A DNA stretch of 64,000 bases. It comes from Enterococcus silesiacus (lineage in GTDB: Bacteria; Bacillota; Bacilli; Lactobacillales; Enterococcaceae). This document shows positions 495 through 15,162 of the stretch, piece after piece. The DNA lies in contig CP013614.1 of NCBI GenBank assembly GCA_001465115.1, positions 3,658,001 to 3,722,000 on the forward strand, read 5' to 3'. The stretch's first letter is position 1, and every line of letters starts with the position of its first letter. Position numbers and translations under genes: made by a program. The notes under the pieces are model-generated. The model worked only from the letters and a program-made list of their open reading frames with translations. It did not search any database and was not told the origin of the DNA.

Positions 495-591
495 ACAGGC
501 TAACCTTTCGGAAAAAAGAGCAAACCTGCTTGTGACCAAAAGCGTCACTCCCATGTTTGCCTATTTTTCAGTCAAGGTTAAACGAGCCTGT
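495..591. repeat. Structured palindromic repeat, copy A1
   Basis: This is a 97-nt imperfect palindrome. The outer arms ACAGGCT and AGCCTGT pair, and AACCTT at repeat positions 8-13 pairs with AAGGTT at 80-85. A second stem joins GAAAAA to TTTTTC and GCAAAC to GTTTGC. The apical stem is GTGAC/GTCAC. The copy repeats almost perfectly 122 bp downstream (A2). A diverged third copy lies at 58703-58799, aligns without gaps, and keeps the pairing through compensatory changes. The family is unknown to me; it could be a small non-autonomous element or a structured RNA. Confidence 0.8.
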
Positions 592-616
592 TCAACTTTT
601 TATTGAATCTAGTTTC

Positions 617-713
617 ACAGGCTAACCTTTCGGAAAAAAGATCAAACCTGCTTGTGACCAAAAGCGTCACGCCCATGTTTGCCTATTTTTCAGTCAAGGT
701 TAAATGAGCCTGT
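617..713. repeat. Structured palindromic repeat, copy A2
   Basis: This is a tandem copy of the 97-nt element at 495-591 with a 122-bp period. Only a few substitutions separate the two, and they lie in unpaired positions or flanks (for example GAGC versus GATC and CTCCC versus CGCCC). It sits about 110 bp upstream of the predicted oppA promoter. The near-identity of A1 and A2 points to a recent local duplication. Confidence 0.8.
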
Positions 714-820
714 TCAACTTTTTATTGCAGTTTCTAAGAAATCACTTCTAAGTAAGACATAATTTAATGATGGTAGTATTAAAAAAAAATAAGATTATTC
801 TTGATTTTTTAATGTAAAAA

Positions 821-849
821 TTGTAAACTATACCTCAGAACAGTAAATA
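821..849 (+). promoter_or_regulatory. Predicted oppA promoter
   Basis: A -35-like TTGTAA (821-826) and a -10-like TAAATA (844-849) are separated by exactly 17 bp. This would start transcription near 856, giving a leader of about 50 nt before the oppA ATG. The hexamers are not perfect, so this is a prediction. The putative TldR guide target (841-858) covers the -10 element. Confidence 0.5.
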
Positions 850-858
850 ATTATTAAA
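841..858 (-). promoter_or_regulatory. Candidate TldR guide-RNA target over the oppA -10 element
   Basis: On the minus strand the sequence reads TTTAA (858-854) and then TAATTATT (853-846). TAATTATT is identical to the first 8 nt after the putative guide-RNA scaffold at 8498-8505. Positions 9-11 differ and positions 12-13 match again. TTTAA would be the TAM and TAATTATT the seed. Binding here would cover the predicted -10 box. The motif is AT-rich, so a chance match cannot be excluded from this window alone. Confidence 0.5.
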
Positions 859-906
859 TTCTGATTTTTCAGAAAATACTTAGGGCATTTTAGGGAGGAA
901 ATAAAA

Positions 907-2583
907 ATGAAGTTAAAGAAGTCATTTGCTTTTGGATTCATCACTTTATTTAGTTTAACATTAGCAGCATGTGGTAACGGCGGCGGAAAAACAGACGATA
1001 CAGGCAGCTCGAAAGCAGCTGATGGCGAAGCCAGCGGGGAACAAATTTTCCGTATTAATGAGCAACAAGAAATGCCAAGTGCAGATCCATCTCTAGCCAC
1101 TGATGAAGTAAGTTTTACAGCGTTAAACAATGTTTATGAAGGAATCTATCGTTTAGACGAAAAAAATAAACCACAACCAGCTGGTGCTGCTGAAAAAGCA
1201 GAAATGAGCGATGACGGTCTTGTTTATAAAATCAAATTAAATGAAGATGCTAAATGGTCTGACGGAAAACCTGTAAAAGCAGAAGACTATGTTTATGGAT
1301 GGCAACGTACCGTTGATCCAGCAACTGCTTCAGAATATGCTTCCCTTTATAGTGCAGTTAAAAATGGCCAAGATATCATGGACGGCAAGAAAGACAAGGC
1401 AGAATTAGGGATCAAAGCCGTCGGTGACTACGAATTAGAAGTCACTTTACAACAAGTAACACCGTTTATGGATTACTTATTTGCATTCCCATCATTCTTC
1501 CCACAAAGACAAGATGTTGTGGAAAAATATGGTGCTAAATTTGCTGCTAACAGTGAAAATGCAGTGTATAATGGACCCTTTACTTTAGCTGATTTTGACG
1601 GACCAGGAACAGATACAGAATGGTCACTTAAAAAGAATAAAGAATATTGGGATAACAAGACAGTTAAATTAGACGAAGTTAAAGTGAGCGTTGTTAAAGA
1701 AGCTCCTACATCGTTGAATCTTTTCCAAGATGGTCAAGTGGATGAAGTCGTATTGAGCGGCGAGCTAGCACAACAAATGGCTAGTGATCCAGAATTTGTC
1801 ATTGAAAAAGAAGCGTCAACTCAATATATGGAATTGAATCAACGTGAAGATAGTTCACCATTTAAAAATGAAAACCTAAGAAAAGCAATCTCTTATTCAA
1901 TCGATCGTAAATCTTTAGTTGAGTCGATCTTAGGAGACGGTTCAGTAGAACCAAAAGGACTTGTTCCAGCGGATATGTCAACAAGCCCTAAAGGGGATAA
2001 AGATTTTGCCGGTGAAGCAGGTAATGTGATTGCCCATGATGAGAAAAAAGCCAAAGAGTATTGGGAAAAAGCGAAAAAAGAATTGGGTATCACTAAACTA
2101 GATATGGATATTCTTTCTTCAGATACAGATTCTTCTAAGAAAACTGTTGAGTACTTACAAGGCGCTATCCAAGATACATTAGATGGTGTAAAAGTGACTG
2201 TTAGTCCAGTACCATTCGCTGTTCGTTTAGATCGTTCAAATAAAGGCGACTTTACAACAACAATTGGTGGTTGGGGAGCAGATTATGCTGATCCAAGTAG
2301 TTTCTTGAATCTCTTTGAAACAGGAAATTCTTATAACCGTGGTCACTATAGTAATCCTGAATATGATAAAAATGTCAAAGCTGCAGCGACAACTAATGCC
2401 AATGAGCCAGAGAAACGTTGGGATAATATGATCGATGCTGAAAAGATTATCATGGATGATATGGGTGTTGTCCCACTTTACCAAAGAGCACAAGCTCGTA
2501 TGCGTTCAGAAAAAGTTAAGGGAATTGCGTTCCACCCAGCTGGACCAAAATTTGATTACAAATGGGCATATATCTCAGAATAA
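907..2583 (+). CDS. oppA: Oligopeptide ABC transporter substrate-binding lipoprotein
   Basis: This 558-residue protein has a lipoprotein signal peptide with lipobox L-A-A-C (Cys22), followed by a Gly/Lys/Asp/Ser linker. The rest matches the family-5 extracellular solute-binding protein fold. Recognisable segments are the N-terminal E-M-P-S-A-D-P-S-L-A-T-D region, W-S-D-G-K-P-V-K-A-E-D-Y-V-Y, and a C-terminal G-G-W-G-A-D-Y-A-D-P-S-S-F segment. It should be tethered to the outer membrane leaflet and deliver peptides to OppBCDF, encoded about 0.5 kb downstream. The start is set by AGGGAGG eight bases before the ATG. Peptide binding proteins of this type can also take up signalling peptides; specificity cannot be read from sequence. 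The upstream promoter is the likely target of the TldR encoded after oppF. Confidence 0.93.
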   Translation: MKLKKSFAFGFITLFSLTLAACGNGGGKTDDTGSSKAADGEASGEQIFRINEQQEMPSADPSLATDEVSFTALNNVYEGIYRLDEKNKPQPAGAAEKAEMSDDGLVYKIKLNEDAKWSDGKPVKAEDYVYGWQRTVDPATASEYASLYSAVKNGQDIMDGKKDKAELGIKAVGDYELEVTLQQVTPFMDYLFAFPSFFPQRQDVVEKYGAKFAANSENAVYNGPFTLADFDGPGTDTEWSLKKNKEYWDNKTVKLDEVKVSVVKEAPTSLNLFQDGQVDEVVLSGELAQQMASDPEFVIEKEASTQYMELNQREDSSPFKNENLRKAISYSIDRKSLVESILGDGSVEPKGLVPADMSTSPKGDKDFAGEAGNVIAHDEKKAKEYWEKAKKELGITKLDMDILSSDTDSSKKTVEYLQGAIQDTLDGVKVTVSPVPFAVRLDRSNKGDFTTTIGGWGADYADPSSFLNLFETGNSYNRGHYSNPEYDKNVKAAATTNANEPEKRWDNMIDAEKIIMDDMGVVPLYQRAQARMRSEKVKGIAFHPAGPKFDYKWAYISE

Positions 2584-2608
2584 TGCAAAATGATAGTCAA
2601 TAGCACAA

Positions 2609-2647
2609 AGGACCTTTGCCCTCTTTGAATAAAAAGGCAACGGTCCT
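2609..2647. terminator. Hairpin between oppA and the convergent DUF3899 gene
   Basis: The arms AGGACCTTTGCC (2609-2620) and GGCAACGGTCCT (2636-2647) pair with one internal mismatch. The T tract after it on the plus strand is weak, while on the minus strand the loop is T-rich. It probably gives partial termination of oppA, so some read-through into oppBCDF is possible. Confidence 0.6.
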
Positions 2648-2661
2648 CTTGCTATCTTTGC

Positions 2662-3009
2662 TCATAAAAAGTAAAATAATAAAGAAACAATAGAGACGAT
2701 CAGTAAGATACCTCCAGTTTCAAGCCAGTAAAGCTGATGTGCTTTGCCAATCTCTGAAAATGGGATAAATTCTTTTGGTTCATTTTTCTTTCTAAAACGA
2801 AAATGCATTTTCATAAAACGTTGGAAATTATCAAAAAATCCTGAGGACATGATCCACATGGCTAAGCCGATAATTAGAAAGAATAGTGAAACAATGAAGA
2901 AGGTATCAGATACAGAACGGATAGTCAGTGATTGATCTATCAATAGGTAAGTAAAAATACCGATGCTTGAGACCGCTGAGGTAATCAAGGGCCATTTAAA
3001 ATTTTTCAT
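2662..3009 (-). CDS. DUF3899 family small membrane protein
   Basis: This 115-residue protein has three hydrophobic segments, at about 7-25, 36-57 and 96-114. Between the second and third lies a basic, aromatic cytoplasmic loop containing F-D-N-F-Q-R-F-M and H-F-R-F-R-K-K. The layout and the Ser-Gly-Phe-Phe-Asp-Asn motif fit the DUF3899 family, whose function is unknown. It is convergent to oppA, divergent from oppB, and has its own strong promoter (3040-3068). An AAGGATG site lies before the ATG. Its position inside an otherwise standard opp locus is odd; I recall a similar small gene at this place in E. faecalis. Confidence 0.8.
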   Translation of the reverse strand: MKNFKWPLITSAVSSIGIFTYLLIDQSLTIRSVSDTFFIVSLFFLIIGLAMWIMSSGFFDNFQRFMKMHFRFRKKNEPKEFIPFSEIGKAHQLYWLETGGILLIVSIVSLLFYFL

Positions 3010-3039
3010 GTGCTCATCCTTACTTAATTTTCTATCCTT

Positions 3040-3068
3040 ACTTTATCGAAAAAAACTGATGAAGTCAA
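3040..3068 (-). promoter_or_regulatory. Promoter of the DUF3899 gene
   Basis: On the minus strand TTGACT (3068-3063), a 17-bp spacer and TAAAGT (3045-3040) form a sigma-A-type promoter. Transcription would start about 20 bp upstream of the DUF3899 ATG. No equally good promoter faces oppB. Confidence 0.7.
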
Positions 3069-3090
3069 AATAATCTCGGAGGTGTCATTC

Positions 3091-4032
3091 TTGAACAGTT
3101 TTGGAAAATATTTTCTTAAACGGGTCTTTTTTATGATCATCACATTGTGGCTGATCGCAACGATTACGTTTTTCTTAATGCAATTATTACCAGGTACTCC
3201 TTATACCAACCAAGAAAAACTTAGTCCAGAAACAATTGCTATGTTGAACAAGCAGTCAGGTTTAGATAAACCAGTGATCGTTCAATATGGAATTTACTTA
3301 AAAAATCTGCTAGTTGGCGATTTTGGGATTTCATTCCAATTTAAAAACCAACCAGTAGCAAAACTGTTGGCAGGCCGTATCGGACCGTCAGTACAATTAG
3401 GAGCGCAAGCAATCGTCTTTGGTACGCTAGTCGGGATTTTACTAGGAATCATTGCAGCGATGCGTCAAAATACATGGGTGGATACATTAGCGACGTTAAT
3501 GGCAATTTTAGGGCGTTCGATTCCTAACTTCGTCTTTGCGGTACTACTGCAATATATCTTTGCCATGAAATTAAAAGTGTTGCCAATCGCAATGTGGAAT
3601 GGATTTGCTTACACGATTCTCCCAACGATTGCTCTGGCAATGAGTCCAATGGCCGATTCCGCCAGGTTTATACGAACCGAGATGGTCGAAGTTTTACATA
3701 GTGATTATGTAGAGTTGGCTCGCGCCAAAGGCTTAAGCCGCTGGCAAGTTGCCGTGAGACACGGACTTAGAAATAGTTTGATTCCTTTGATTACATTACT
3801 CGGCCCATTAGCCGTTGGTTTGATGACAGGATCTTTAGTTGTTGAAAATATTTTTGCGATCCCAGGTATTGGGGAGCAGTTCGTAAAATCAATCATGACA
3901 AATGACTACCCAACAATTATGGCCGTAACGATTTTATATTCTGCTTTGTTAGTATTCGTCATCTTGATCGTTGATTTACTTTATGGATTGATTGATCCAA
4001 GAATTCGTGTTTCAGGAGGTGCCAAAGGTTAA
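3091..4032 (+). CDS. oppB: Oligopeptide ABC transporter permease OppB
   Basis: This 313-residue inner-membrane permease begins with the typical N-terminal helix preceded by Lys and Arg. It contains the binding-protein-dependent transport signature near residues 205-225 (E-L-A-R-A-K-G-L-S), the EAA loop that contacts the ATPases. It ends with the DPRIR motif usual in this family. I chose the TTG at 3091 because GGAGG (3078-3082) lies 8 bases upstream. The in-frame GTG at 3082 overlaps that ribosome-binding site and is unlikely. The stop codon overlaps the oppC start by one base. OppB and OppC together form the transmembrane channel of the peptide importer. Confidence 0.93.
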   Translation: MNSFGKYFLKRVFFMIITLWLIATITFFLMQLLPGTPYTNQEKLSPETIAMLNKQSGLDKPVIVQYGIYLKNLLVGDFGISFQFKNQPVAKLLAGRIGPSVQLGAQAIVFGTLVGILLGIIAAMRQNTWVDTLATLMAILGRSIPNFVFAVLLQYIFAMKLKVLPIAMWNGFAYTILPTIALAMSPMADSARFIRTEMVEVLHSDYVELARAKGLSRWQVAVRHGLRNSLIPLITLLGPLAVGLMTGSLVVENIFAIPGIGEQFVKSIMTNDYPTIMAVTILYSALLVFVILIVDLLYGLIDPRIRVSGGAKG

Positions 4033-5084
4033 TGGAAACAGTTGACTTAAATAATGTCCCAGAAAAAATCAAAAACATACCTGCAAATGACTTCCAGCCT
4101 TTGGATACATCAACAACCAAGGAACGTGAACGAATTGCAACGCCGTCACTAAGCTTTTTACAAGATTCTTGGCGTCGTTTGAAAAAGAATAAAGCTGCTG
4201 TGATTTCCTTGATTCTTTTAGGAATCATCATCTTTATTTCAATTATCACTATCTGGGTTTCACCTCATGACCCAACACAACAAAATGTAGCATACATCAA
4301 CTTACCACCGCGTATTCCGTTTTTAGATAGTATCAATGGGTTTAACGGTACAGCCAATGTTGCTGGTAAAATGGTAGATAAGTACGCTCAAGCGAACGTT
4401 CCTGATAATGTTAACTTTTACCTTGGAACAGACGGCTTAGGTCGTGATGTATTGAGCCGTTTATTCATGGGAACACGTATCTCATTATTGATCGCATTTA
4501 TCGCAGCTTTGCTTGATATTACGATCGGTGTAACGTACGGTTTGATTTCAGGATTATTAGGCGGACGTGTCGATACAGTGATGCAACGTATCTTGGAAGT
4601 TCTTTCAGGGATTCCTAACCTTGTTGTGATGATCTTGATGCTGACTGTTTTTGATCCAGGTATTTTATCAATCGTATTAGCGATGGTTATTACCAACTGG
4701 ATTTCAATGGCCAGAATCGTGCGGGCTCAGACCTTGAAACTAAAAGATCAAGAGTTCGTTTTAGCTGCCCAAACATTAGGTGAATCTCGTTTGAAGATCG
4801 CCGTAAAACATATTTTGCCGAATATCTCAAGCGTGATCATCGTTCAAATGATGTTCAGTATCCCGTCAGCAATTTTCTTCGAAGCGTTTCTAAGTTTCAT
4901 CGGTTTAGGATTAAGACCGCCGACCGCTTCTCTTGGAACATTATTAAATGAAGGATATAAAACGTTCCGTTTCCTTCCATATTTGATGTGGATTCCTGCC
5001 GTAACTTTGTCAGTCGTAATGATTTGTTTCAACTTGTTAGCTGACGGACTACGTGATGCCTTCGATCCTAAGATGAAAGAGTAG
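4032..5084 (+). CDS. oppC: Oligopeptide ABC transporter permease OppC
   Basis: This 350-residue permease has a long N-terminal cytoplasmic tail of about 55 residues, then the first membrane helix, a periplasm-type loop with the L-G-T-D-G-L-G-R-D-V-L-S-R motif typical of OppC/DppC, and the remaining helices. The EAA-loop segment is V-L-A-A-Q-T-L-G-E-S. It ends with L-R-D-A-F-D-P-K. The ATG overlaps the oppB stop, showing translational coupling. It pairs with OppB in the membrane. Confidence 0.93.
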   Translation: METVDLNNVPEKIKNIPANDFQPLDTSTTKERERIATPSLSFLQDSWRRLKKNKAAVISLILLGIIIFISIITIWVSPHDPTQQNVAYINLPPRIPFLDSINGFNGTANVAGKMVDKYAQANVPDNVNFYLGTDGLGRDVLSRLFMGTRISLLIAFIAALLDITIGVTYGLISGLLGGRVDTVMQRILEVLSGIPNLVVMILMLTVFDPGILSIVLAMVITNWISMARIVRAQTLKLKDQEFVLAAQTLGESRLKIAVKHILPNISSVIIVQMMFSIPSAIFFEAFLSFIGLGLRPPTASLGTLLNEGYKTFRFLPYLMWIPAVTLSVVMICFNLLADGLRDAFDPKMKE

Positions 5085-5089
5085 AGTGA

Positions 5090-6151
5090 ATGACTATGGA
5101 AAAAGTATTAGAAGTAAAAGACTTACAGATTTCTTTTGATACGTTTGCTGGAAAAGTAAATGCTATTCGTGGTGTGAGCTTTGAGCTGTTCAAAGGGGAA
5201 ACTCTTGCGATCGTAGGAGAGTCTGGTAGTGGTAAATCAGTAACTACTAGAAGTATCATGCGATTATTGAGCAGCAATGCGAACATCGACAATGGAGAAA
5301 TTCTGTTTAAAGGTGAAGATATCGTACACAAAACGGAAAAACAAATGCAAACCATTCGTGGGAAAGAAATTGCAATGATTTTCCAAGATCCAATGACTTC
5401 ATTGGATCCAACAATGCCGATTGGCAAACAAGTTGCTGAATCGTTGATCAAACACAATAAAGTGTCAAAAAAAGAAGGTTTAGATCAAGCCTTAGAATTA
5501 TTAAAATTAGTAGGGATTCCAAACGCTGAAAAACGTTTGAAAAACTATCCTCACCAATTTTCAGGCGGACAACGTCAACGGATCGTGATCGCGATTGCGT
5601 TGATTTGTTACCCAGAAGTTCTAATTGCTGATGAGCCAACAACAGCCTTGGATGTAACGATTCAAGCGCAAATTTTAGAACTATTAAAAGACTTACAACA
5701 AAAAATCAGCACATCGATCATCTTCATTACCCATGATTTAGGGGTGGTAGCAAACGTGGCTGACCGTGTAGCCGTTATGTATGGTGGACGTTTAGTGGAA
5801 GTCGGAACATCAGAAGAGATTTTCTACAATCCACAACATCCATATACCTGGGGACTACTTGGCTCAATGCCGACAATGGAAGGGACCGAAGACAAGCTAT
5901 ATGCGATTCCTGGTTCACCTCCCGATTTGTTAGACCCGCCAAAAGGAGATGCTTTTTATCCGCGTAACGAGTTTGCAATGAAGATCGACGCAGAAGAAGC
6001 ACCACCGTATTTTGAAGTATCACCAACTCATAAAGCTGCAACGTGGTTATTAGCACCGCAAGCACCAAAAATCACCCCTCCAGCTGAAATTGTAAGACGT
6101 TGGGCGATTTATGCTGAACGCCATAATACGACTGCAGGAGGCGTTAGATAA
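5090..6151 (+). CDS. oppD: Oligopeptide ABC transporter ATP-binding protein OppD
   Basis: This 353-residue ATPase shows Walker A G-E-S-G-S-G-K-S, the ABC signature F-S-G-G-Q-R-Q-R, Walker B V-L-I-A-D-E-P-T-T-A-L-D and the switch histidine in I-T-H-D-L-G. The C-terminal 80 residues form the oligopeptide-transporter extension that follows the nucleotide-binding domain in this family. In many OppD proteins this extension carries a four-Cys iron-sulfur motif; I see no such cysteines here. It starts five bases after oppC. A second ATG at 5096 could also serve. It couples ATP hydrolysis to peptide import together with OppF. Confidence 0.92.
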   Translation: MTMEKVLEVKDLQISFDTFAGKVNAIRGVSFELFKGETLAIVGESGSGKSVTTRSIMRLLSSNANIDNGEILFKGEDIVHKTEKQMQTIRGKEIAMIFQDPMTSLDPTMPIGKQVAESLIKHNKVSKKEGLDQALELLKLVGIPNAEKRLKNYPHQFSGGQRQRIVIAIALICYPEVLIADEPTTALDVTIQAQILELLKDLQQKISTSIIFITHDLGVVANVADRVAVMYGGRLVEVGTSEEIFYNPQHPYTWGLLGSMPTMEGTEDKLYAIPGSPPDLLDPPKGDAFYPRNEFAMKIDAEEAPPYFEVSPTHKAATWLLAPQAPKITPPAEIVRRWAIYAERHNTTAGGVR

Positions 6152-7110
6152 TGAGTGAAAAAAGAAAAGTACTTTTAGATGTTAAAGGACTAAAACAATA
6201 TTTTAACGTTGGACGCCCTGACGAAGTTAGAGCTGTTGACGATATCAGTTTCCATATCTACGAAGGTGAAACTTTCGGATTGGTGGGAGAATCTGGTAGT
6301 GGTAAATCAACAACTGGACGTAGTGTGATTCGTTTATACGACCCAACAGGTGGCGAAATCATTTTCAATGGTGACGACATCAGTAAAATTCGTTCAAAAT
6401 CAGGAATGCAAGCATTCCGTCGTGAAGTTCAAATGATCTTCCAAGATCCGTATGCTTCATTGAATCCAAGAATGAAAGTCAATGATATCATTGCTGAAGG
6501 AATCGACATTAATCATTTAGCGAAAGATGCCGCTGAACGTGAATCTAAGGTCAACGAACTATTAAAAGTCGTTGGACTTGATCCGAGTCACGGAACGCGT
6601 TATCCACATGAATTTTCAGGTGGTCAACGCCAACGGATCGGGATTGCGAGAGCCTTAGCCGTTGATCCGCGCTTCATCATCTGTGATGAGCCGATTTCAG
6701 CGTTGGATGTATCGATTCAAGCCCAAGTTGTTAATTTATTACAGGACTTACAAAAAGATGCTGGTTTGACTTACTTGTTTATTGCCCATGATTTATCAAT
6801 GGTAAAACACATCAGTGACCGTATCGGCGTTATGCATAGCGGTAGATTATTGGAAATGGGTTCAAGTGATGATGTATATAATTTTGGTGTGCATTCATAT
6901 ACTGAAAGCTTATTATCAGCGATTCCATTACCTGATCCAGATTATGAACGTACGCGTAAACGTATTGTTTATAAGCCGCAACCTGAAGATAATAAAGAAC
7001 GTAAACTAAGAGAAATCACACCAGAACATTATGTGTATTGTTCTGAAGATGAAGTTGACGTTTACCGTAAAAAAATTGAAGAGAAAAAAGCCCAAGCGAA
7101 TCACGGGTAG
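6151..7110 (+). CDS. oppF: Oligopeptide ABC transporter ATP-binding protein OppF
   Basis: This 319-residue ATPase has Walker A G-E-S-G-S-G-K-S-T, signature F-S-G-G-Q-R-Q-R-I, Walker B F-I-I-C-D-E-P-I-S-A-L-D and switch A-H-D-L-S. A short C-terminal tail follows, with the E-H-Y-V-Y-C segment common in OppF. The ATG overlaps the oppD stop region by one base and GGAGG precedes it. It is the last gene of oppBCDF; a strong terminator follows at 7130-7169. Immediately downstream lies the nuclease-dead TnpB homologue, the association used to define oppF-linked TldRs. Confidence 0.93.
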   Translation: MSEKRKVLLDVKGLKQYFNVGRPDEVRAVDDISFHIYEGETFGLVGESGSGKSTTGRSVIRLYDPTGGEIIFNGDDISKIRSKSGMQAFRREVQMIFQDPYASLNPRMKVNDIIAEGIDINHLAKDAAERESKVNELLKVVGLDPSHGTRYPHEFSGGQRQRIGIARALAVDPRFIICDEPISALDVSIQAQVVNLLQDLQKDAGLTYLFIAHDLSMVKHISDRIGVMHSGRLLEMGSSDDVYNFGVHSYTESLLSAIPLPDPDYERTRKRIVYKPQPEDNKERKLREITPEHYVYCSEDEVDVYRKKIEEKKAQANHG

Positions 7111-7129
7111 TCGCTTGACAAACTAAATC

Positions 7130-7169
7130 CTAGCTAGGAAAAAACTATTTTTTCTTAGCTAGAATTTTT
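7130..7169 (+). terminator. Terminator of oppBCDF
   Basis: CTAGCTAGGAAAAAA (7130-7144) pairs with TTTTTTCTTAGCTAG (7148-7162) across a 3-nt loop, followed by A-A-T-T-T-T-T. Placement just after oppF separates its transcript from the following tldR-like gene. Confidence 0.85.
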
Positions 7170-7256
7170 AAAAAATGGGATGAAAAAATGAAATGACTAG
7201 TAGAAATATTCCTTTTTCGAAATATTTCATAACTTACTTGTTAAGGTGGTCAAATA

Positions 7257-8384
7257 ATGAAGGTATTAAAGGCATATAAATACAGACTTTACCCTACTTC
7301 ATTACAAGAAGAGTTCATCAAAAAAACTTTTTCTTGCGTGCGGCTTGTGCATAATCTTTTATTACAGGAGCGAATTCAGCTCTATAAGAAACTGAAAGAA
7401 AACCCTAACTTAAAAGTAAAAATGCCCACACCGGCTCAATATAAAAAAGAGCATCCTTGTTTAAGGGAAGTGGACAGTTTAGCATTAGCAAATGCACAGG
7501 TTTACTTGGATCGAGCATTCAAAAAATTTCATAGAGAAAAATCAGTCGGTTTTCCTAAGCTAAAGCAAAAGAAAAACGCTGTTTGCTCCTATACAACGAA
7601 TAATCAAAATGGTACGATTAAAATTATTGACGAAAAGTATTTAAAAGTACCAAAGTTAAAATCGTTGATGAAAATGAAGATGCATCGTCCAGTAATAGGG
7701 AAAATAAAGTCAGCGACAATTTCTTTGACTCCCAGCAATAAGTATTTCGTTTCGATCTTGTGCGAAGAAGAAATTCCGGCAGTTGAGAAGACACATTTTG
7801 CAATCGGGATAACATTAGGTGCTTCTGAATTTGCTGTATTATCAAATGGCAGACGTTTTGACAATGATAAATATACAAAAGAATTTGAACGACGGATTAC
7901 GAGAGAAGAAAGAAAACTGAGGCGACGCAAAGAAATTGCAAAATTAAAAGGAACAGATCTTTCTCAGCAGAAAAACTACCAGAAACAAAAAACGAAAGTC
8001 GCGAAAATGCGAGAAAAGTTGATGAATCAACGAATCGATTTTCTAAATAAAATCACGACAGAAATCGTTAGGAAGTATGATTTGATTTGTATAGAAGATA
8101 TCCATCAAGCAGATTTTTATAGAAACAATAAATTGCATCGAGGCGTTACGGATGTTTCTTGGGCACTGTTTGTTTCAAAGCTAGAATATAAAGCATCATG
8201 GTATAACAAAAGATTGGTCAAGGTTTCAGTGTGTCAAAAATGTTCTGAACATTCAGATAATAATCGGATGAGTAAAATATTTTTCCATGATATCAATGAA
8301 AAAAAAGGTAGGCAAGATCCAGAAACCGCCGCCAGTATTCATGTATTGACACAGGGATTGAAAGAAGCAACAGTCACTGACTAA
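7257..8384 (+). CDS. tldR: TnpB-like nuclease-dead RNA-guided repressor (TldR-type), oppF-associated
   Basis: This 375-residue protein is clearly of the TnpB/IS605 OrfB family. The N-terminus has K-A-Y-K-Y-R-L-Y-P-T, followed by the helical REC-like region and a RuvC-like half from about residue 180. The first RuvC motif, normally G-I-D-L-G, reads G-I-T-L-G, so the catalytic Asp is Thr186. The second motif keeps its glutamate (I-C-I-E280-D-I). The third reads Q-D354-P-E-T-A-A-S-I instead of D-x-N-A-A-x-N-I: Asp is present but both Asn are lost. Only one zinc-finger pair remains (C326-Q-K-C329); the second is replaced by I-F-F-H. Loss of the first Asp should abolish cleavage, while RNA and DNA binding may persist. 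No tnpA or transposon ends remain. Wiegand et al. (Nature 2024) described such proteins next to oppF in Enterococcus as guide-RNA-directed repressors of the opp operon. The start has AAGGTGG 7 bases upstream. An inactive transposon relic is the alternative, but the intact frame argues against it. Confidence 0.85.
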   Translation: MKVLKAYKYRLYPTSLQEEFIKKTFSCVRLVHNLLLQERIQLYKKLKENPNLKVKMPTPAQYKKEHPCLREVDSLALANAQVYLDRAFKKFHREKSVGFPKLKQKKNAVCSYTTNNQNGTIKIIDEKYLKVPKLKSLMKMKMHRPVIGKIKSATISLTPSNKYFVSILCEEEIPAVEKTHFAIGITLGASEFAVLSNGRRFDNDKYTKEFERRITREERKLRRRKEIAKLKGTDLSQQKNYQKQKTKVAKMREKLMNQRIDFLNKITTEIVRKYDLICIEDIHQADFYRNNKLHRGVTDVSWALFVSKLEYKASWYNKRLVKVSVCQKCSEHSDNNRMSKIFFHDINEKKGRQDPETAASIHVLTQGLKEATVTD

Positions 8385-8389
8385 GTAAA

Positions 8390-8508
8390 AAAACTGTAGG
8401 GACTACAGGGCTAGCCTAGGGCATATAAGATAGATATAGCGTTTATTCGATCATTTGTCTTTTTCTAGGAAATTTCTAGTTAATAGAAATAGTTCACTAA
8501 TTATTAGT
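8390..8508 (+). ncRNA. Candidate TldR guide RNA (omega-RNA-like scaffold plus short guide)
   Basis: The flank after tldR is non-coding but structured. It has CTGTAG-GGA-CTACAG (8394-8408), then GGGCTAGCCTAGG. A terminal hairpin pairs ATTTCTA (8472-8478) with TAGAAAT (8484-8490), and AGTTCAC (8491-8497) follows. This is how the right end of an IS200/IS605-type element and its omega-RNA scaffold look. The sequence after AGTTCAC would be the guide, starting TAATTATTAG at 8498. Its first 8 nt match the oppA promoter next to TTTAA. The 5' end of the RNA could lie inside the tldR reading frame. Exact ends are inferred. Confidence 0.6.
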
Positions 8509-8522
8509 TGATAAAAAAATCG

Positions 8523-8582
8523 AACTTTATTTTATTTATTCAAGCAGGTTACTTGCTTGGAGGAATAGAATAAAGTTTTTTG
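8523..8582 (+). terminator. Terminator after tldR and its guide RNA
   Basis: AACTTTATT (8523-8531) pairs perfectly with AATAAAGTT (8569-8577), with an inner stem CAAGCA/TGCTTG and a T run after it. It would end the tldR/guide transcript before the HAD gene. Confidence 0.65.
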
Positions 8583-8646
8583 CTGTATTTGATGAAATAT
8601 ATAGTACAATAATACTAAGTAAAGCAACCCAAAAGGAGAACGATCA

Positions 8647-9432
8647 ATGAAAGAATATAAAGCACTTGTCTTTTTTGATTTAGACGGTACATTATTAGGG
8701 ACGGATTCAAAAATTTCCAAAGAAAATCATCAAGCAATCATGGAATTAAAACAAAATACGATTTTACCATTGATTGCAAGCGGACGTTCACCAAAAGAAA
8801 TCAGACAAATTACAACGGGAACTGCGATTGATTCTTATGTAAGTTTGAATGGTCAATTTAATGTGGTTGAACATCAAGTTGTCTCAAAACATCCGATTCC
8901 CTTAAAACAGATACAAGAATTGATGGCGTTTTCTAAAGCGCAAGGTCATTCACTAGCCTGTTATACTGAAGATGAATATGCTACGTGCTATACGAATGAT
9001 AGCATGGAAAAATTGTATCAATTAGATAATGCACCATTACCGAAAATTTCAAAAGACTTTCACCAAGAAAATGAGATCTATATGCTGTATCTTTTTTCAG
9101 AAGACGAAACAAAAGATCAGTTGTATATAAAAGAATTCTCCGATAAATTGACTTTTTTCAGAGACAGTCCTTATTCGCTAGCAATTGTGTTAAGCGGCCA
9201 ATCAAAAAAAGCCGGTATCGAGGAAGTCATAAAGGCACTAGATTTAGCAGATTTACCAACCTACGCTTTTGGCGATGGCAATAATGATTTAGGTATGTTT
9301 GAAGCGGTCGAAACAGCAATAGCTATGGAGAATGCAGGGGAGCATGTGAAGAGTCAGGCCGATTTCATTACAAAGTCTCATATGGATGATGGCATTCGTT
9401 TCGGCTTAAAATATTTTAAATTAATTGATTGA
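8647..9432 (+). CDS. Cof-type HAD-superfamily phosphatase
   Basis: This 261-residue protein has the HAD motif I F-F-D-L-D-G-T-L-L near the N-terminus, with the nucleophile and acid-base Asp pair. It also has motif II A-S-G-R-S, a lysine in the cap-proximal region, and motif IV F-G-D-G-N-N-D-L-G-M. Domain order and length fit the Cof/YkrA subfamily (cap type IIB), which dephosphorylates sugar phosphates or related metabolites in the cytoplasm. Substrate cannot be told from sequence. AAAAGGAG precedes the ATG. It is followed 14 bp downstream by a paralogous phosphatase, probably in one operon. Confidence 0.85.
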   Translation: MKEYKALVFFDLDGTLLGTDSKISKENHQAIMELKQNTILPLIASGRSPKEIRQITTGTAIDSYVSLNGQFNVVEHQVVSKHPIPLKQIQELMAFSKAQGHSLACYTEDEYATCYTNDSMEKLYQLDNAPLPKISKDFHQENEIYMLYLFSEDETKDQLYIKEFSDKLTFFRDSPYSLAIVLSGQSKKAGIEEVIKALDLADLPTYAFGDGNNDLGMFEAVETAIAMENAGEHVKSQADFITKSHMDDGIRFGLKYFKLID

Positions 9433-9446
9433 AAGGAAGCGGAAAA

Positions 9447-10247
9447 ATGACAGTAAAAATGATTGCAGTAGATATGGATGGTACATTTTTGAACAGCCAG
9501 CAAGAGTATGACCGAGAAAAATTTAGTTCCTTATATCAGCAAATGAAACAGCAAAATGTTCGGTTCGTTGTGGCAAGTGGCAATCAGTATTACCAACTTA
9601 AATCTTTTTTTCCAGAAATTGAGACCGAATTATCATTTGTAGCAGAAAATGGCGCTTATGTCGTCAGTGAAGGTCAAGAAGTTTTTACTGGTGAAATCGA
9701 TCCGGAAGTCGTTCAGGAAGTTCTGACTATTTTAGCGAACTTTGAGCAAGGTCATATCATTCTTTGCGGGAAAAATAGTGCCTATGTTGCTGAAGATGAG
9801 CCTACTTCATTTATTGAACATGTTAGTAAATATTATCATCGCTTGAAAAAAGTGCCGAGTTTGTTTGAGGTAAAAGAAGATACTTTATTCAAATTCGCAT
9901 TAAGTTTTCCTGTTGAGCAAGTAGCAGAAGTACTAGAGCAGTTGAATGATGCATTGGGCGATAAGGTTATCCCAGTCTCAAGCGGGCATGGTGATGTCGA
10001 TCTGATCATTCCAGGAGTCCACAAGGCGCATGGACTGATGAAGTTACAAGAATTATGGGGCATCCAAAACCATGAAATAGCTGCTTTTGGCGATAGTGGG
10101 AATGATTTAGAGATGCTGAAACACGCTGGATTCAGCTATGTCATGAGCAATGGACAACCCAATGTGAAAGTAGCTGCTAAAGAAATCATCCTATCCAACG
10201 ATGAAAATGGCGTATTGGTTAAGATCGAAGAATTATTGGGACAATAA
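9447..10247 (+). CDS. Second Cof-type HAD-superfamily phosphatase
   Basis: This 266-residue protein shows A-V-D-M-D-G-T-F-L (motif I), V-A-S-G-N (motif II), and A-F-G-D-S-G-N-D-L-E-M-L (motif IV), again a Cof-type HAD hydrolase with a IIB cap. The start at the ATG 9447 is preferred because AAAGGAAGCGG lies just upstream; an upstream in-frame TTG has no ribosome-binding site. It overlaps no gene but is closely spaced to the preceding paralogue, suggesting tandem duplication followed by divergence. A terminator follows immediately. Confidence 0.85.
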   Translation: MTVKMIAVDMDGTFLNSQQEYDREKFSSLYQQMKQQNVRFVVASGNQYYQLKSFFPEIETELSFVAENGAYVVSEGQEVFTGEIDPEVVQEVLTILANFEQGHIILCGKNSAYVAEDEPTSFIEHVSKYYHRLKKVPSLFEVKEDTLFKFALSFPVEQVAEVLEQLNDALGDKVIPVSSGHGDVDLIIPGVHKAHGLMKLQELWGIQNHEIAAFGDSGNDLEMLKHAGFSYVMSNGQPNVKVAAKEIILSNDENGVLVKIEELLGQ

Positions 10248-10256
10248 AAAGTAAAG

Positions 10257-10293
10257 GGATTGGGTTACTCTTTGAGTTGCCCAATCGCTTTTT
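10257..10293 (+). terminator. Terminator of the HAD phosphatase pair
   Basis: GATTGGG (10258-10264) pairs with CCCAATC (10280-10286) and is followed by GCTTTTTATTT. Confidence 0.8.
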
Positions 10294-10351
10294 ATTTGTA
10301 TAAAAGATGGGACAGAAATAGCTGTTGCTCCAATCACTTATTAAAAAGGTG

Positions 10352-10380
10352 TTGACAAAAATCAATTAATATCATATACT
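10352..10380 (+). promoter_or_regulatory. Promoter of infC-rpmI-rplT
   Basis: A consensus TTGACA (10352-10357), 17-bp spacer and TATACT (10375-10380) form one of the strongest sigma-A promoters in the window. A leader of about 215 nt separates it from infC. Confidence 0.85.
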
Positions 10381-10387
10381 ATTAAAG

Positions 10388-10520
10388 TTGAGAAATGAAA
10401 GCAGAAGCACCCGCTTCTCGCCTTAGCTGACAGTGTCACTGGGCTGGATATAGGATTCCTTATATCAATTGATATGAGACTGAATCAATCGCGGGGTCTG
10501 TAAACAGAGCCTGTTTTTTA
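10388..10520 (+). ncRNA. Ribosomal-protein L20-type leader of the infC operon with attenuator hairpin
   Basis: The leader begins shortly after the promoter and includes GCAGAAGC/GCTTCTCGCC-like pairings around 10400-10420. It ends in GGTCTGT/ACAGAGCC (about 10495-10512) followed by a T run, a terminator-like hairpin upstream of infC. In Firmicutes, L20 represses infC-rpmI-rplT by binding a leader that mimics its 23S rRNA site and causes early termination. Position and attenuator match that class; I did not match the L20 binding core residue by residue. Confidence 0.6.
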
Positions 10521-10601
10521 TTGTAATTTTTTACGATAGCAGACTTTGAAGAATAAGTTTCAGCAATGATTTTCTCTTAAAAAACTTGGAGGTGAATGAC
10601 C

Positions 10602-11117
10602 ATAGCAAAGGATATGATGGTGAACGACGGCATTCGTGCACGCGAGTTACGTTTGATCGGACAAGACGGCGAACAATTAGGTGTAAAAACAAAAGTGGAA
10701 GCATTACAAATTGCGGAAACAGCTAATCTAGATTTAGTTTTAGTAGCACCTACTGCAAAACCGCCTGTTGCGCGAATTATGGATTACGGGAAATTCCGTT
10801 TCGAAACGCAAAAGAAAGAGCGTGAAGCTCGTAAGAAACAAAAAGTGATCAACGTAAAAGAAGTTCGTTTAAGTCCTACAATTGATTTAAATGACTTCAA
10901 TACAAAACTTCGTAATGCACGTAAATTCTTAGAAAAAGGTGACAAAGTAAAAGCTTCGATCCGTTTCAAAGGCCGTGCCATTACCCACAAAGAAATTGGT
11001 CAGAAAGTTCTTGATCGCTTAGCGGAAGAAACTGCAGATATTGCTACAGTGGAGCAAAAAGCGAAAATGGACGGACGCAGCATGTTCCTAACGCTGGCAC
11101 CGAAGAATGAAAATTAA
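10602..11117 (+). CDS. infC: Translation initiation factor IF-3
   Basis: The protein of about 171 residues has the IF-3 N-domain ([13 protein letters not shown]), the basic linker ([11 protein letters not shown]) and the C-domain ([10 protein letters not shown]). It binds the 30S subunit and checks initiator tRNA and start codon. The start is notable: GGAGGTG at 10588-10594 is only 3 nt from the ATG at 10596 but correctly spaced from an in-frame ATA at 10602. That ATA lies where infC genes use rare AUU or similar codons for autoregulation. I therefore place the start at ATA 10602. If the ATG were used, the protein would gain two residues. Confidence 0.93.
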
Positions 11118-11228
11118 GCTAATAAGCTGATAACTAGTTAACGAAAATTTTTGAGGATGCTAGTTCAACTTTTTCAACTAATTTAGTTGAACTGTATACG
11201 AAATGAAAATGTAGGAGGAAAATTAGTC

Positions 11229-11429
11229 ATGCCAAAACAAAAAACACACCGCGGATCAGCAAAACGTTTCAAACGTACTGGTAACGGCGGGTTAAAAAGA
11301 TTCCGTGCGTTTACAAGTCACCGTTTCCACGGCAAAACAAAAAAACAACGTCGTCAATTGCGTAAAGCAGGAATGGTTTCATCAGGCGATTTCAAACGTA
11401 TTCGTCAACAATTAGCAAGAATGAAGTAA
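11229..11429 (+). CDS. rpmI: 50S ribosomal protein L35
   Basis: The 66-residue, highly basic protein starts M-P-K-Q-K-T-H-R-G and contains the [12 protein letters not shown] segment and the C-terminal I-R-Q-Q-L-A-R-M-K typical of L35. The ATG at 11229 follows GTAGGAGG; upstream in-frame codons have no support. It lies between infC and rplT, the conserved order. Confidence 0.96.
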
Positions 11430-11564
11430 AAAAAGCGTAGGGGACTAGTCCACGAAGCTAGATTTGTAACAAAGCTTGCTGAATTTGAGAATGAACTTAT
11501 TCATGCAACAACTTAGCAATTAAAATAACTCATAGAGACAACAGATATTTAGGAGGAATTAACC

Positions 11565-11924
11565 ATGGCACGTGTTAAAGGTGGCGTAGTAGCCCGTAAA
11601 CGTCGTAAAAAGATTCTTAAGTTAGCGAAAGGCTATTATGGATCAAAACATACATTATTTAAAACAGCACAAGAACAAGTAATGAAATCATACAGTTATG
11701 CATACAGAGATCGTCGTCAAAAGAAACGTGACTTCCGTAAATTATGGATCGCTCGTATCAATGCGGCAGCTCGTATGAATGGCTTGAGCTATTCTAAATT
11801 AATGCACGGTTTGAAATTGGCAGAGATTGATATCAACCGCAAAATGTTAGCAGAATTAGCAGTTAACGATGCAGCAGCATTTACTACATTAGCTGACCAA
11901 GCTAAAGACGCTTTAGCTAAATAA
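11565..11924 (+). CDS. rplT: 50S ribosomal protein L20
   Basis: The 119-residue protein starts [10 protein letters not shown] and contains [11 protein letters not shown] and the [11 protein letters not shown] segment of L20, an early assembly protein that binds 23S rRNA. It also represses its own operon through the infC leader. AGGAGG precedes the ATG and a strong terminator follows. Confidence 0.97.
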
Positions 11925-12220
11925 TTAAATTTTTGTTGATTGATCAACATTTGTACCCACTCAATTTGAGTGGGTATTTTTTTTACTCTAATGCTATTAC
12001 TAAAACAAATTCAATGGATGTGCATAAGAACATGACTATAGATAAAGGTTCAAGTCATTTAATTCTTTAGATCATAACCTAAATGAAAAAAAGCGCTTCA
12101 TAGCTGAATAAAATCACTGAGGTGTTACCTTGAAGCGTTCAATATTTGTTTTGTTATTCAGTTATAGTTTGTTATCATTAAGATGATACAAAATATAACT
12201 GAAAAAAGGAGAGTAATGGG
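11925..12220. other. Intergenic region after rplT
   Basis: It holds the rplT terminator and an AT-rich stretch with a weak inverted pair GCGCTTCA (about 12093) and TGAAGCG (about 12132). It also has TGAATAA (about 12105) and TTATTCA (about 12155), which could form a nested hairpin upstream of the CPBP protease gene. No gene is seen. Confidence 0.6.
11954..11984 (+). terminator. Terminator of infC-rpmI-rplT
   Basis: TACCCACTC (11954-11962) pairs perfectly with GAGTGGGTA (11968-11976), followed by eight T. Confidence 0.93.
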
Positions 12221-12889
12221 ATGGCGTATGTTAAAAATTTTTTTATTGTAGTTGGTTTGTTTTTAGTAAGTCAAATTGGTATGACGGTATTTGATGTAGT
12301 AAAAATCATTTCTCAGGAAAAGGGCGAAGCAAATTTATCTTTGTTTGTATCTATTTTGTTGATATTGTTGGTTATTGGGAATATTTGGCTATTGCTATTT
12401 TTAGGAAAAAAGCTTGGTTTTTTTAGTATAAAATTTGATTTTTTCACTAAGAAAAATGTTGGAATTATTCTAGGTGGTTTTATTTTGGCCAGAGTGATTG
12501 CTATTGGCGGAACTCTTTTATTGAATACTCAAGGGTCACAAAGTACGGCTAATGATGCTGCGATACAGACACTATTTACAGGGGAGAATCCTTTATTGAT
12601 CATATTATTATTAGGGATTTCGGCACCAATCATGGAAGAGATTGTATTTAGAGGTGGGATCATCGGGTTTTGGTTGGAAAAATTTCCGCTGCTTGCTATT
12701 GCACTTAGTTCGATTCTATTTGGTTTGATTCATGGACCAACAAACGTAGTCAGTTTTTTGATTTATGCTTTGATAGGCTTGATTCTTTCTGTAGCTTATT
12801 ATAAAACTCAGCGTCTAGAAGTCAGCATATCTATCCACTTTTTAAACAATATTCTTGGTGCGATCATGATCGGATTTGGGCTGATTTAG
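12221..12889 (+). CDS. CPBP-family intramembrane metalloprotease (CAAX/Abi type)
   Basis: This 222-residue multi-pass membrane protein carries the family motifs in order: E-E-I-V-F-R-G (about residues 139-145), F-G-L-I-H-G (about 166-171) and a final H-F-L-N-N (about 206-210). These supply the Glu and His residues that coordinate zinc in Rce1-type CPBP proteases. In Lactobacillales such proteins include bacteriocin immunity and peptide-maturation factors. There is no bacteriocin gene nearby, so its substrate is unknown. AAAAGGAG lies upstream of the ATG. It is flanked by terminators and appears monocistronic. Confidence 0.85.
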   Translation: MAYVKNFFIVVGLFLVSQIGMTVFDVVKIISQEKGEANLSLFVSILLILLVIGNIWLLLFLGKKLGFFSIKFDFFTKKNVGIILGGFILARVIAIGGTLLLNTQGSQSTANDAAIQTLFTGENPLLIILLLGISAPIMEEIVFRGGIIGFWLEKFPLLAIALSSILFGLIHGPTNVVSFLIYALIGLILSVAYYKTQRLEVSISIHFLNNILGAIMIGFGLI

Positions 12890-12910
12890 TCAAATAAGAA
12901 CATATGAAAA

Positions 12911-12962
12911 GAGGGCGTGAAACAAAAGCGATTTTTACTTTTGTTCTACGTCCTCTTTTGCT
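12911..12962. terminator. Bidirectional terminator
   Basis: GAGGGCGT with AAACAAAAG pairs with CTTTTGTT and ACGTCCTC, then TTTTGCTT. The reverse strand also ends in a T run, so it can serve both the CPBP gene and the convergent EIIC gene. Confidence 0.8.
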
Positions 12963-12975
12963 TGATGCTATTAAA

Positions 12976-14286
12976 TTAAGAATTTTCTACAATTTCGGCA
13001 TTATATGTTGCTTCGCCTTCGATTTCAATTTTATAAGCTTTCGCATCTTCTAACTTAAAGAACGGATAATACAAACCAAAGCTCAATAAAATCTGAACGA
13101 TTTGCAAAACAGCACCACGCCAACCGCTGACCATCAAACCTGCAATAACAGGCGGCATCGTCCACGGTAAATTTACACCGTTAGCTAATGGTACAAGACC
13201 GGTTGCCATTGCTGTATAGGCAATAATGCACATCAAAAGAGGGGCAATGACAAAGGGAATCAGCATCATTGGATTGAGCACGATCGGAATACCAAAAACT
13301 AAAGGCTCATTGATATTAAAAATTGCAGGTGCAAAAGATAGCTTTCCTAATGTTTTAAACTGAGAAGATTTTGCGAAAAAAAGGCAGGCAATTGCTAAAC
13401 CAATTGTTGCACTGGAGCCGCCCAGTTTGACAAAATTACTGTAGAATTGATAATTCACAATATTTGGCAATGGTTTACCAGTAGCGAAAGCTTGAGCATT
13501 TTCAACAGTTAAAGCGATCCAAATCGGTTGCATCACAGCACCGACAATATTTGAACCGTGGATTCCGAATGACCATAGCAGTGCTTCGAATAACAAAATA
13601 ATCAAGGTTGCCGGAAGTGAACTGCCTAGCGCTAAAAGAGGTGTTTGCAGCACTTCGAAAATAAAATTTTGAGCCGTTTCATAAGCAGTAAAAGTAAAAC
13701 CGATCCGAACCAAGTTAAAGACAATCACTACGAAAAAGCCAGGAATCAATGCTGAAAACGATTTCGCTACATTGGAAGGAACAGAATCAGGCATTTTGAT
13801 CGTCCAGCCTTTTTGTATGACCCAGCGGAAAATTTCAGTTGCAAGTATTGCCGTGATCATGCCAACAAACAGACCAGATGCCCCAAAGTTTCCTAACGGT
13901 AGAAATGAACCGTCATCCGTTGAAGTGATCGGCGTGAGGACTAAAAAGGCAACAAGAGCAATTGCCTGAGTCGAGCCTCGATCGACAGTGTAATATTTCG
14001 CCAGCTCACTAGCAATCCCTAAGATCACAAATAAAGTCATCGCGTTCATAGTCATATCATTGACTTGTAAAAATAGTGACATCCAGTTTTCACCTAAAAT
14101 GGAAGCCATAAAATTAGTATAAGGTTCTATTGGCAATTGCGTGACTAATAAAAACATAGAACCAATGATCAATAAGGGCATAGCGACAAAGAAACCATTT
14201 TTAATAGCTGAAAGATAACGATTTGAATCGAGTTTGTAAGCAATTGGACCTAACTTTGCTTGTAGTTTATCTAAAAATGTATTCAT
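12976..14286 (-). CDS. PTS EIIC component, cellobiose/lactose (CelB-like) family
   Basis: This 436-residue membrane protein starts with M-N-T-F-L-D-K-L-Q-A-K-L-G-P-I-A and has about ten hydrophobic segments. It carries the family hallmark F-N-I-N-E-P-L-V-F-G-I-P-I-V-L-N-P around residue 330. It should translocate and help phosphorylate a beta-glucoside or diacetylchitobiose-like sugar. No EIIA or EIIB of the same family, nor a phospho-beta-glucosidase, lies next to it. It is therefore an orphan permease that must borrow partners encoded elsewhere. GGAGG precedes the ATG, and it reads away from psiE. Confidence 0.9.
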   Translation of the reverse strand: MNTFLDKLQAKLGPIAYKLDSNRYLSAIKNGFFVAMPLLIIGSMFLLVTQLPIEPYTNFMASILGENWMSLFLQVNDMTMNAMTLFVILGIASELAKYYTVDRGSTQAIALVAFLVLTPITSTDDGSFLPLGNFGASGLFVGMITAILATEIFRWVIQKGWTIKMPDSVPSNVAKSFSALIPGFFVVIVFNLVRIGFTFTAYETAQNFIFEVLQTPLLALGSSLPATLIILLFEALLWSFGIHGSNIVGAVMQPIWIALTVENAQAFATGKPLPNIVNYQFYSNFVKLGGSSATIGLAIACLFFAKSSQFKTLGKLSFAPAIFNINEPLVFGIPIVLNPMMLIPFVIAPLLMCIIAYTAMATGLVPLANGVNLPWTMPPVIAGLMVSGWRGAVLQIVQILLSFGLYYPFFKLEDAKAYKIEIEGEATYNAEIVENS

Positions 14287-14643
14287 GTTTTTCCTCCTTG
14301 TGTTCGTTTTTTTATTATTAAAAGGAAGTGAGCAATGAATAAGAAAACCCTTTCATTTGTGGTGATCAAAAGATGTATAGTTTTATTCTACATTAGGTAG
14401 GTATTAAAATCAATATGTCGAATTTACTTTTTGGGATAAAAAACTTGTTTATTCTGGTTTTGAGAAAAAGATTTCAAAGTGAGTGTCATAAGGGTTTTCT
14501 TTCAGATTTAGATTTTTACATCATATCAAAAAAATGTTATATTATTCTTATAAAGAAAGAGTAGTGATCGTCTTAAAGGAGATTGACGCAACTAAATTTT
14601 TATCTAGCATATAGTTAACACCAGAAACAAAAGGAGGACGAAA
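14287..14643. other. Divergent intergenic region between the orphan EIIC gene and psiE
   Basis: It is AT-rich and non-coding. It contains the EIIC ribosome-binding site at its left edge and a psiE-side promoter (14516-14543). I see no cre site or clear operator. Confidence 0.6.
14516..14543 (+). promoter_or_regulatory. Predicted psiE promoter
   Basis: TTACAT (14516-14521), a 16-bp spacer and TATATT (14538-14543) form a plausible promoter about 100 bp before psiE. Confidence 0.5.
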
Positions 14644-15090
14644 ATGAAAGAAGAACAGAGATTTGGGATAATGAAAAAATATGTCAATTGGGTTTTGGAT
14701 GTTGTTTTAGGCGCACTTGCCCTACTGATTTTGATTTTTATGATACGGCAATTATTTGACATCAGCACATTTATCACAAAACCAATGACACCTAAAAACT
14801 TATCGATCGTAATGCAGGAAGTTGTGGCATTTTTTATGTTATTCGAGTTTATTATGATGGTGATCCGCTATATTCAAGAAGGTCATCATATTCCGATCAG
14901 GTACTTGATCCTGATTTGTATTACGGCTATTTTAAGACAATTAATGGTGCTTCATGGTGATGCTGTGCAAACCTTGTTATTATCTGTATCGATTCTATCA
15001 CTGGTTATTGTATTATTTGTACTAAACCTGAGTGGCAATAAATCGTATGTAGGTTTTAAACCTCACATAGATGAAAAAGAGAAACAATGA
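14644..15090 (+). CDS. psiE: PsiE-family membrane protein
   Basis: This 148-residue protein has four hydrophobic segments at about 19-36, 55-75, 84-98 and 108-128. It matches the phosphate-starvation-inducible PsiE family, including the H-H-I-P-I-R-Y segment and R-Q-L-M-V-L-H. The molecular role of the family is unknown. AAAGGAGG lies before the ATG. It ends just before an unusually long perfect terminator. No phosphate-regulon genes are nearby. Confidence 0.85.
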   Translation: MKEEQRFGIMKKYVNWVLDVVLGALALLILIFMIRQLFDISTFITKPMTPKNLSIVMQEVVAFFMLFEFIMMVIRYIQEGHHIPIRYLILICITAILRQLMVLHGDAVQTLLLSVSILSLVIVLFVLNLSGNKSYVGFKPHIDEKEKQ

Positions 15091-15102
15091 GATAAGTAAA
15101 CA

Positions 15103-15162
15103 TGCCTATAAAGAGCCCTAAACAAAACTTTTTTTCGTTTTGTTTAGGGCTCTTTATAGGCA
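15103..15162. terminator. Bidirectional terminator with a 26-bp perfect stem
   Basis: The arms 15103-15128 and 15137-15162 are perfectly complementary over 26 bp, with an 8-nt T-rich loop. It separates convergent psiE and yeiH. Confidence 0.93.

Follow-up and report, generated by a model that had tools for sequence, protein, structure and literature searches.

In a stretch of 64,000 nucleotides (nt) of Enterococcus silesiacus DNA (GenBank assembly GCA_001465115.1, contig CP013614.1, positions 3,658,001 to 3,722,000; the whole stretch is termed the window), the gene behind oppF, here called tldR, encodes a TnpB homologue, most likely of the TldR type. Together with an RNA of the Rfam family Ref70, this protein probably acts (rough probability 0.8) as a natural CRISPR interference (CRISPRi) repressor of peptide uptake through oppA, with a gene for a branched-chain amino-acid transporter (liv) as a predicted second target. 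This reading is built on losses in the RuvC centre, a structured RNA with a kept guide, and a transposon-adjacent motif (TAM) with a guide match at both promoters, all of which can be read from the sequences across species. The original prediction for this locus, made from the letters alone, had described the protein; the guide RNA, its oppA target and the second conserved target had been missed there and were found in the present analysis.

The TnpB homologue behind oppF and its relatives

The tldR frame (coordinates in Table 1) encodes 375 amino acids without an internal stop and starts 146 nt past oppF; its coordinates and intact frame agree with the original prediction. Its assignment as a full-length member of the TnpB family was borne out by the NCBIfam models guided_TnpB (207 bits; cut-off 100) and IS200_TnpB (327 bits, under the family's own cut-off of 425). 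Gene counts and alignment rows given below for clade 1 refer to 22 loci, namely those of 21 genomes of the genus, including the source genome, and of G022.

Alignment to active TnpBs and fold comparison, both of which had been proposed as checks, revealed a TnpB fold (8h1j/8exa) with RuvC residues lost. As foreseen, T186 sits at the column of the RuvC-I Asp, which is Asp in 23/23 TnpBs with an intact RuvC set, and both Asn of the third motif are replaced (A358, H362). The change of the third-motif Asp to Glu356, with Glu in 22/22 clade-1 rows, had been overlooked. The RuvC-II Glu is retained as E280 in all 22 rows, and the Asp-Glu-Asp triad of active nucleases is altered at residues 1 and 3 in each of them. 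The first Cys pair (C326/C329), at which the residue alignment had a gap and which was judged by separate inspection for CxxC, is retained in TldR, with CxxC present in 14/22 clade-1 rows; the second pair is gone, as had been claimed, with no row (0/22) having CxxC beyond residue 335.

The ratio of nonsynonymous to synonymous substitution rates (dN/dS) of tldR was 0.048–0.089 over the six comparisons with computable dS, three further comparisons being saturated; by this measure, the gene is under purifying selection. It is present in 21/22 genomes of the genus and lies directly after oppABCDF in 22/22 clade-1 loci. The exception, G003, gave no tldR match and also no oppF match at E ≤ 1e-100, an empty answer that alone shows little. 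G003 is close to the source genome (liv protein 99% identical), and its whole opp operon was possibly lost. The loss of catalytic and zinc-finger residues could also be expected if tldR were a functionless, decaying relic of a TnpB element; this notion is largely contradicted by the selection data and the near-constant presence of the gene, as well as by the covarying RNA helices and the kept guide start described below, and can hardly be right.

The claimed absence of a transposase and of transposon ends held within the range searched: no transposase domain was found by Pfam in ten neighbouring open reading frames of the 24 listed in window 1–16000, and the left-end letters conserved in active relatives did not occur in window 5000–9000 by exact string match. 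A second relative was not found in the source genome at E ≤ 1e-3, and the closest multicopy TnpBs are 52–55% identical to TldR. Because the RuvC losses coincide with purifying selection, oppF synteny, an adjacent structured guide RNA and a TAM-flanked oppA match, the tldR product is most likely a nuclease-dead, RNA-guided, domesticated and oppF-linked TnpB, and the domestication for non-cutting, RNA-guided binding proposed earlier gains support from the same features.

A second clade comprises shorter TldRs that are 37–46% identical to the source protein and have no C-terminal RuvC-III and zinc-finger part. By hand tally, the 37 clade-2 loci with a guide lie after oppF (31), after a divergent opp-like operon (2; L068, L153) or away from opp (4; L054, L057, L149, L154). 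An independent origin of the two clades was considered, as a first tree without outgroup left the matter undecided, and was rejected when a tree with distant TnpBs as outgroup united them in one branch with support 97/92. That tree contained 60 rows (11/22 clade-1, 13/23 clade-2, 12/23 TnpB and 24/29 outgroup loci, the latter chosen by an aligned length above 330 residues), and the program flagged three rows for their unusual composition, along with several long branches. L106, a frame with stops that was read up to the first stop, was omitted from both trees. Since the clades join once distant TnpBs root the tree, a single old domestication would be the simplest history of the family.

Two loci stand apart from these. 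At L147 (G063), a TldR-like gene lies away from opp in a genome that also has an oppF-linked copy, and no guide RNA was recognised 3' of it. L150 (G240), from outside Enterococcaceae, is a TnpB-like frame in which RuvC-I (GIERG) and the third motif are degenerate; oppABCDF matches were absent from the stretch fetched around it.

The guide RNA and the oppA promoter

Among the active, multicopy TnpB elements of the family, the right end reads AGTTCAC in 20/20 loci, and TTTAA stands immediately 5' of the left end in 11/11 loci with a match to the left-end string (the other 9 of the 20 gave no such match). TTTAA was, by analogy with these active relatives, taken as the putative TAM of TldR. Application of their right-end rule to the tldR locus sets the end of the scaffold at 8497 and the start of the guide at 8498.

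The guide starts with TAATTATTA, the one deviating clade-1 guide (L006) being TAATTATAA, and its opening TAATTAT was found in 59/61 TldR loci (22 of clade 1, 37 of clade 2). For L106 and L147 no guide was found with a search pattern that required TAATTAT, so that deviating guides would read as none. The region scored as Ref70 in Rfam (Table 1); among eight further loci scanned, the gathering score was passed by L052 and L010 and failed by clade-1 L048, clade-2 L066, L059 and L054, and the TnpB loci L069 and L082.

RNAs of 5 clade-1 and 12 clade-2 loci were aligned for a covariation analysis. The structure examined, which includes pairing of the 5' hairpin loop with the scaffold end beside the guide, had 98.4% of cells paired versus 93.1% in shuffled alignments and 43–66% when slid; as it was derived from the same alignment and from hand-named pairs, the slid control is biased towards the structure. 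Pairs changed on both sides numbered 5 (1/500 shuffles as high), and such cells 17 (0/500 shuffles). By these counts, there are covarying helices in the RNA downstream of tldR. Ref70 is likely the guide RNA of TldR. The long hairpin following it was obtained by fold prediction and was not listed by a simple terminator scan.

In clade 1, TTTAA with 7 or more guide letters behind it was present on the minus strand of 22/22 oppA promoters (7 letters in L006, 8 or 9 in the others), 50–56 nt upstream of the start codon and just past the likely −10 box. In clade 2, TTTAATAATTA stands on the plus strand in 12/12 aligned oppA promoters with 6–7 guide letters, 68–77 nt upstream of the start and inside the likely −35/−10 spacer. 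It was found, moreover, in 29/29 clade-2 oppF-linked loci whose stretch reaches oppA (the 12 aligned ones included; the whole upstream stretch was searched, and placement before oppA was done by hand) and at both divergent operons, and in none of the 4 clade-2 loci away from opp or the 2 shortened stretches (L104, L108). No other 11-mer occurs in at least 20/22 clade-1 and at least 11/12 clade-2 oppA promoters. In dinucleotide shuffles of the 200 nt upstream of the source oppA, the 13-mer arose in 17/20000 and the 12-mer in 51/20000. Since the oppA site differs in place and strand between the clades, the targets rather than the guide would seem to evolve. In L006, the guide deviates at letter 8 but the oppA site does not, which suggests that seven guide letters may be enough for targeting.

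Read on the plus strand, the source site gives TAATTATTA, 9 letters without TTTAA. This reading was kept as an ambiguity; TTTAA, constant and equal to the TAM deduced from the active relatives, speaks against preferring it.

Further occurrences were noted around oppA. L143–L146 have an additional minus-strand TTTAATAATTAT, by coordinates between oppA and oppB, and L152 and L155 have a tandem pair of oppA genes with TTTAATAATTA upstream of each, again by coordinates. At L068 and L153, the oppF of the divergent operon is 49–50% identical, the guide start is unchanged, and TTTAATAATTA lies upstream of the operon's binding-protein match. TTTGA with 9–10 guide letters occurs in clade-2 L148, L149, L152 and L155 (6 letters in L057); the string resembles a Fur-type box, and the match could be coincidental or a genuine off-site. 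Upstream of the oppA promoter in the source, window 474–727 holds a tandem repeat in which a 122-nt unit occurs 2.1 times with 94% matches.

The liv promoter and the weighing of alternatives

One of the exact TTTAATAATTAT sites of the source genome, at G000:C1:309353-309364, lies 103 nt upstream of a gene for a branched-chain amino-acid-type substrate-binding protein (Pfam Peripla_BP_6; the NCBIfam PRK15404 match is under its cut-off). This liv site is kept, with variable flanks, in 18/22 genomes of the genus, that is, in 17/21 with tldR and in G003; in L161 it is at −436. An open k-mer comparison (oppA at least 20/22, liv at least 17/22) yielded a single 12-mer, TTTAATAATTAT (22 and 18), and at 11 letters additionally TTTTCAGAAAA (22 and 22); shared 13-mers were absent. 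The liv gene is, on this basis, a predicted second target of TldR. An oppA-like paralogue (65–66% identity) in G006 and G002 has TTTAATAATTATT approximately 170 nt upstream.

Other candidates were dropped. The sites ahead of an ABC ATPase gene and of a MarR-type gene were found in 1/7 and 1/17 orthologous loci, respectively, each in the source genome only (one of the 17, L278, being a broken gene whose upstream region is not properly placed), and a 13-mer shared by five genomes (L187, L194, L203, L205, L209) was, by eye, coding sequence.

Several results speak against repression of oppA and liv by a guided TldR. Exact TTTAATAATTAT sites numbered 4 in the source genome versus 6 for the reversed control, and the site count by itself lends no support. 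The liv site is missing from 4/22 genomes of the genus; in other genera it was present in 0/23 properly placed liv loci (24 loci less L215, shortened by its contig), and G003 retains it though no tldR or oppF match was found there. At clade-2 oppA sites the guide match is limited to 6–7 letters. The seed core TAATTA is palindromic, and the opposite strand always gives TAATTATTA without TAM, which leaves the strand ambiguous. A consensus promoter scan of 600–930 omits the hand-named oppA −35/−10 and lists two minus-strand sites, at chance level. Finally, the number of RNA pair types was no higher than in shuffles (279/500).

Some of these points would also fit an element of the promoter or leader, or a binding site for a different regulator next to a CodY box, to which the guide match would be secondary or coincidental. 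The retention of the liv site in G003, the AT-rich promoter region (76.5% A+T), and the CodY-like boxes in both the oppA and the liv promoters argue in this direction; TTTTCAGAAAA resembles the CodY consensus. Against it, TTTAA coincides with the TAM of active relatives, and the 7 letters behind it are those of a guide start that was set independently by the right-end rule; the shared 11-mer is the only one common to the oppA promoters of both clades despite differing place and strand; and of 792 permutations of the TTTAATAATTAT letters, 2 reach 22/22 at oppA and 1 reaches 18 at liv, the target alone doing both. We regard this alternative as unlikely.

Table 1. Features of the tldR locus (window positions).
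Feature	Position	Strand	Basis or remarks
tldR, most likely nuclease-dead TnpB homologue, 375 amino acids	7257..8384	+	domain scores, alignment, fold, dN/dS
Rfam RF02841 Ref70 (Enterococcus sRNA 70), likely guide RNA of TldR	8388..8509	+	139.6 bits versus gathering score 115
Guide RNA scaffold	8392..8497	+	terminal GTTCAC as at right end of active TnpB elements
Guide start TAATTATTA	8498..8506	+	identical 9 letters in 21/22 clade-1 loci
Long hairpin and T run, likely terminator of guide RNA transcript	8523..8581	+	predicted fold
Predicted oppA-promoter target	846..858	-	TAM TTTAA 858-854, then 8 guide-identical letters 853-846
Likely oppA −35 TTGATT (801-806) and −10 TAAACT (824-829)	801..829	+	by eye, conserved blocks
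CodY-like box TTTTCAGAAAA	866..876		22/22 clade-1 oppA and 22/22 genus liv promoters
oppABCDF, oligopeptide ABC (ATP-binding cassette) transporter; oppA predicted target gene	907..7110	+	
Terminator-like hairpin in oppF-tldR gap	7130..7162	+	terminator scan, 2 such sites in stretch versus 0.9 expected

The terminator-like hairpin in the gap before tldR suggests expression partly separate from oppF. Elsewhere in the window, a glycine riboswitch aptamer was detected at 54081–54184 (57.5 bits).

Proposed mechanism and comparison with known systems

In the proposed mechanism, TldR would bind the Ref70 RNA encoded directly 3' of its gene, and the complex would recognise TTTAA and then pair guide letters 1 to 7 or 8 with DNA. 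Incapable of cutting and bound just past the likely −10 box, TldR would block transcription of oppA and, likewise, of the liv gene. The outcome would be feedback control of nutrient import alongside CodY. We infer repression by TldR from sequence, as we do the protein's binding of RNA and DNA, the sign of the regulation and the processing of the RNA.

Some natural dead Cas12f-like proteins act in activation. Proteins of this kind (9n9c, 9n9m) are among the fold matches of TldR, and TldR might bind its sites yet activate, or merely fine-tune start-site choice. Described TldRs repress, and the clade-1 oppA and liv sites lie just past likely −10 boxes, where occupancy is expected to block; TldRs are also termed repressors by Walker et al. 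2026 (PMC13418256). An activating or fine-tuning role thus appears very unlikely, and repression remains the preferred sign.

Beyond the two promoters, we lean slightly towards a natural CRISPRi regulon, in which the guide start would be fixed across Enterococcaceae while targets evolve, as with a classical transcription factor and its fixed DNA motif. Ref70 would be its guide RNA, and sites in trans would stand beside CodY-like boxes at the promoter for branched-chain amino-acid uptake and, in two genomes, at the oppA-like paralogue. The oppF-type TldR thereby gains a precise, testable wiring of RNA, letters and promoters. If this holds, an RNA-guided protein would act as an ordinary nutrient regulator with a motif of 7–8 letters at more than one promoter, the orphan small RNA family Ref70 would be given an identity, and the import of peptides and branched-chain amino acids in enterococci would be under the joint control of TldR and CodY.

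A TldR is defined as a TnpB homologue with inactivated RuvC, outside a transposon and under selection, with an adjacent guide RNA, a guide–promoter match by the TAM, and repression through RNA-guided binding of the target DNA. At the sequence level, the source locus has a dead RuvC, selection without a transposon, an adjacent scaffolded RNA and a TAM-flanked promoter match, and is most likely a member of the oppF-type kind. Such oppF-linked TldRs of Enterococcus, with short guides and promoter targets, were reportedly described by Wiegand and colleagues (in Nature, 2024); they are likewise nuclease-dead TnpBs that follow oppF and have a guide RNA next to the gene. The present analysis arrived at the liv target and the identity of Ref70, and at the constancy of the guide start despite the differing placement of the target. 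A literature search did not find the liv target, the Ref70–TldR identity or the displaced target in print, a weak result as its scope lacked Wiegand et al. 2024; Ref70 is filed as a small RNA, and no link to TldR was found in the literature searched.

Walker et al. 2026 (PMC13418256) describe TldRs as RNA-guided transcription factors and treat FliC- and CsrA-associated, flagellin-linked ones; neither "oppF" nor "Enterococcus" occurs in the text. Those proteins share with the present one the guide RNA, the role of RNA-guided transcription factor (predicted for the present one) and the derivation from TnpB by RuvC inactivation; they differ in that they regulate flagellin and that the FliC-linked ones lie in prophages, whereas the present TldR follows a chromosomal nutrient transporter.

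With active IS605-type TnpBs (ISDra2 TnpB, 8h1j/8exa; multicopy elements of the family), TldR shares the fold and, with the multicopy elements at the identity given above, the scaffold end and the putative TAM. It differs from them in the lost RuvC Asp residues and second Cys pair and in being single copy in its genome. The guide of active TnpBs is set by each insertion site, whereas that of TldR is kept, and the RNA that carries it is a member of Rfam RF02841 Ref70.
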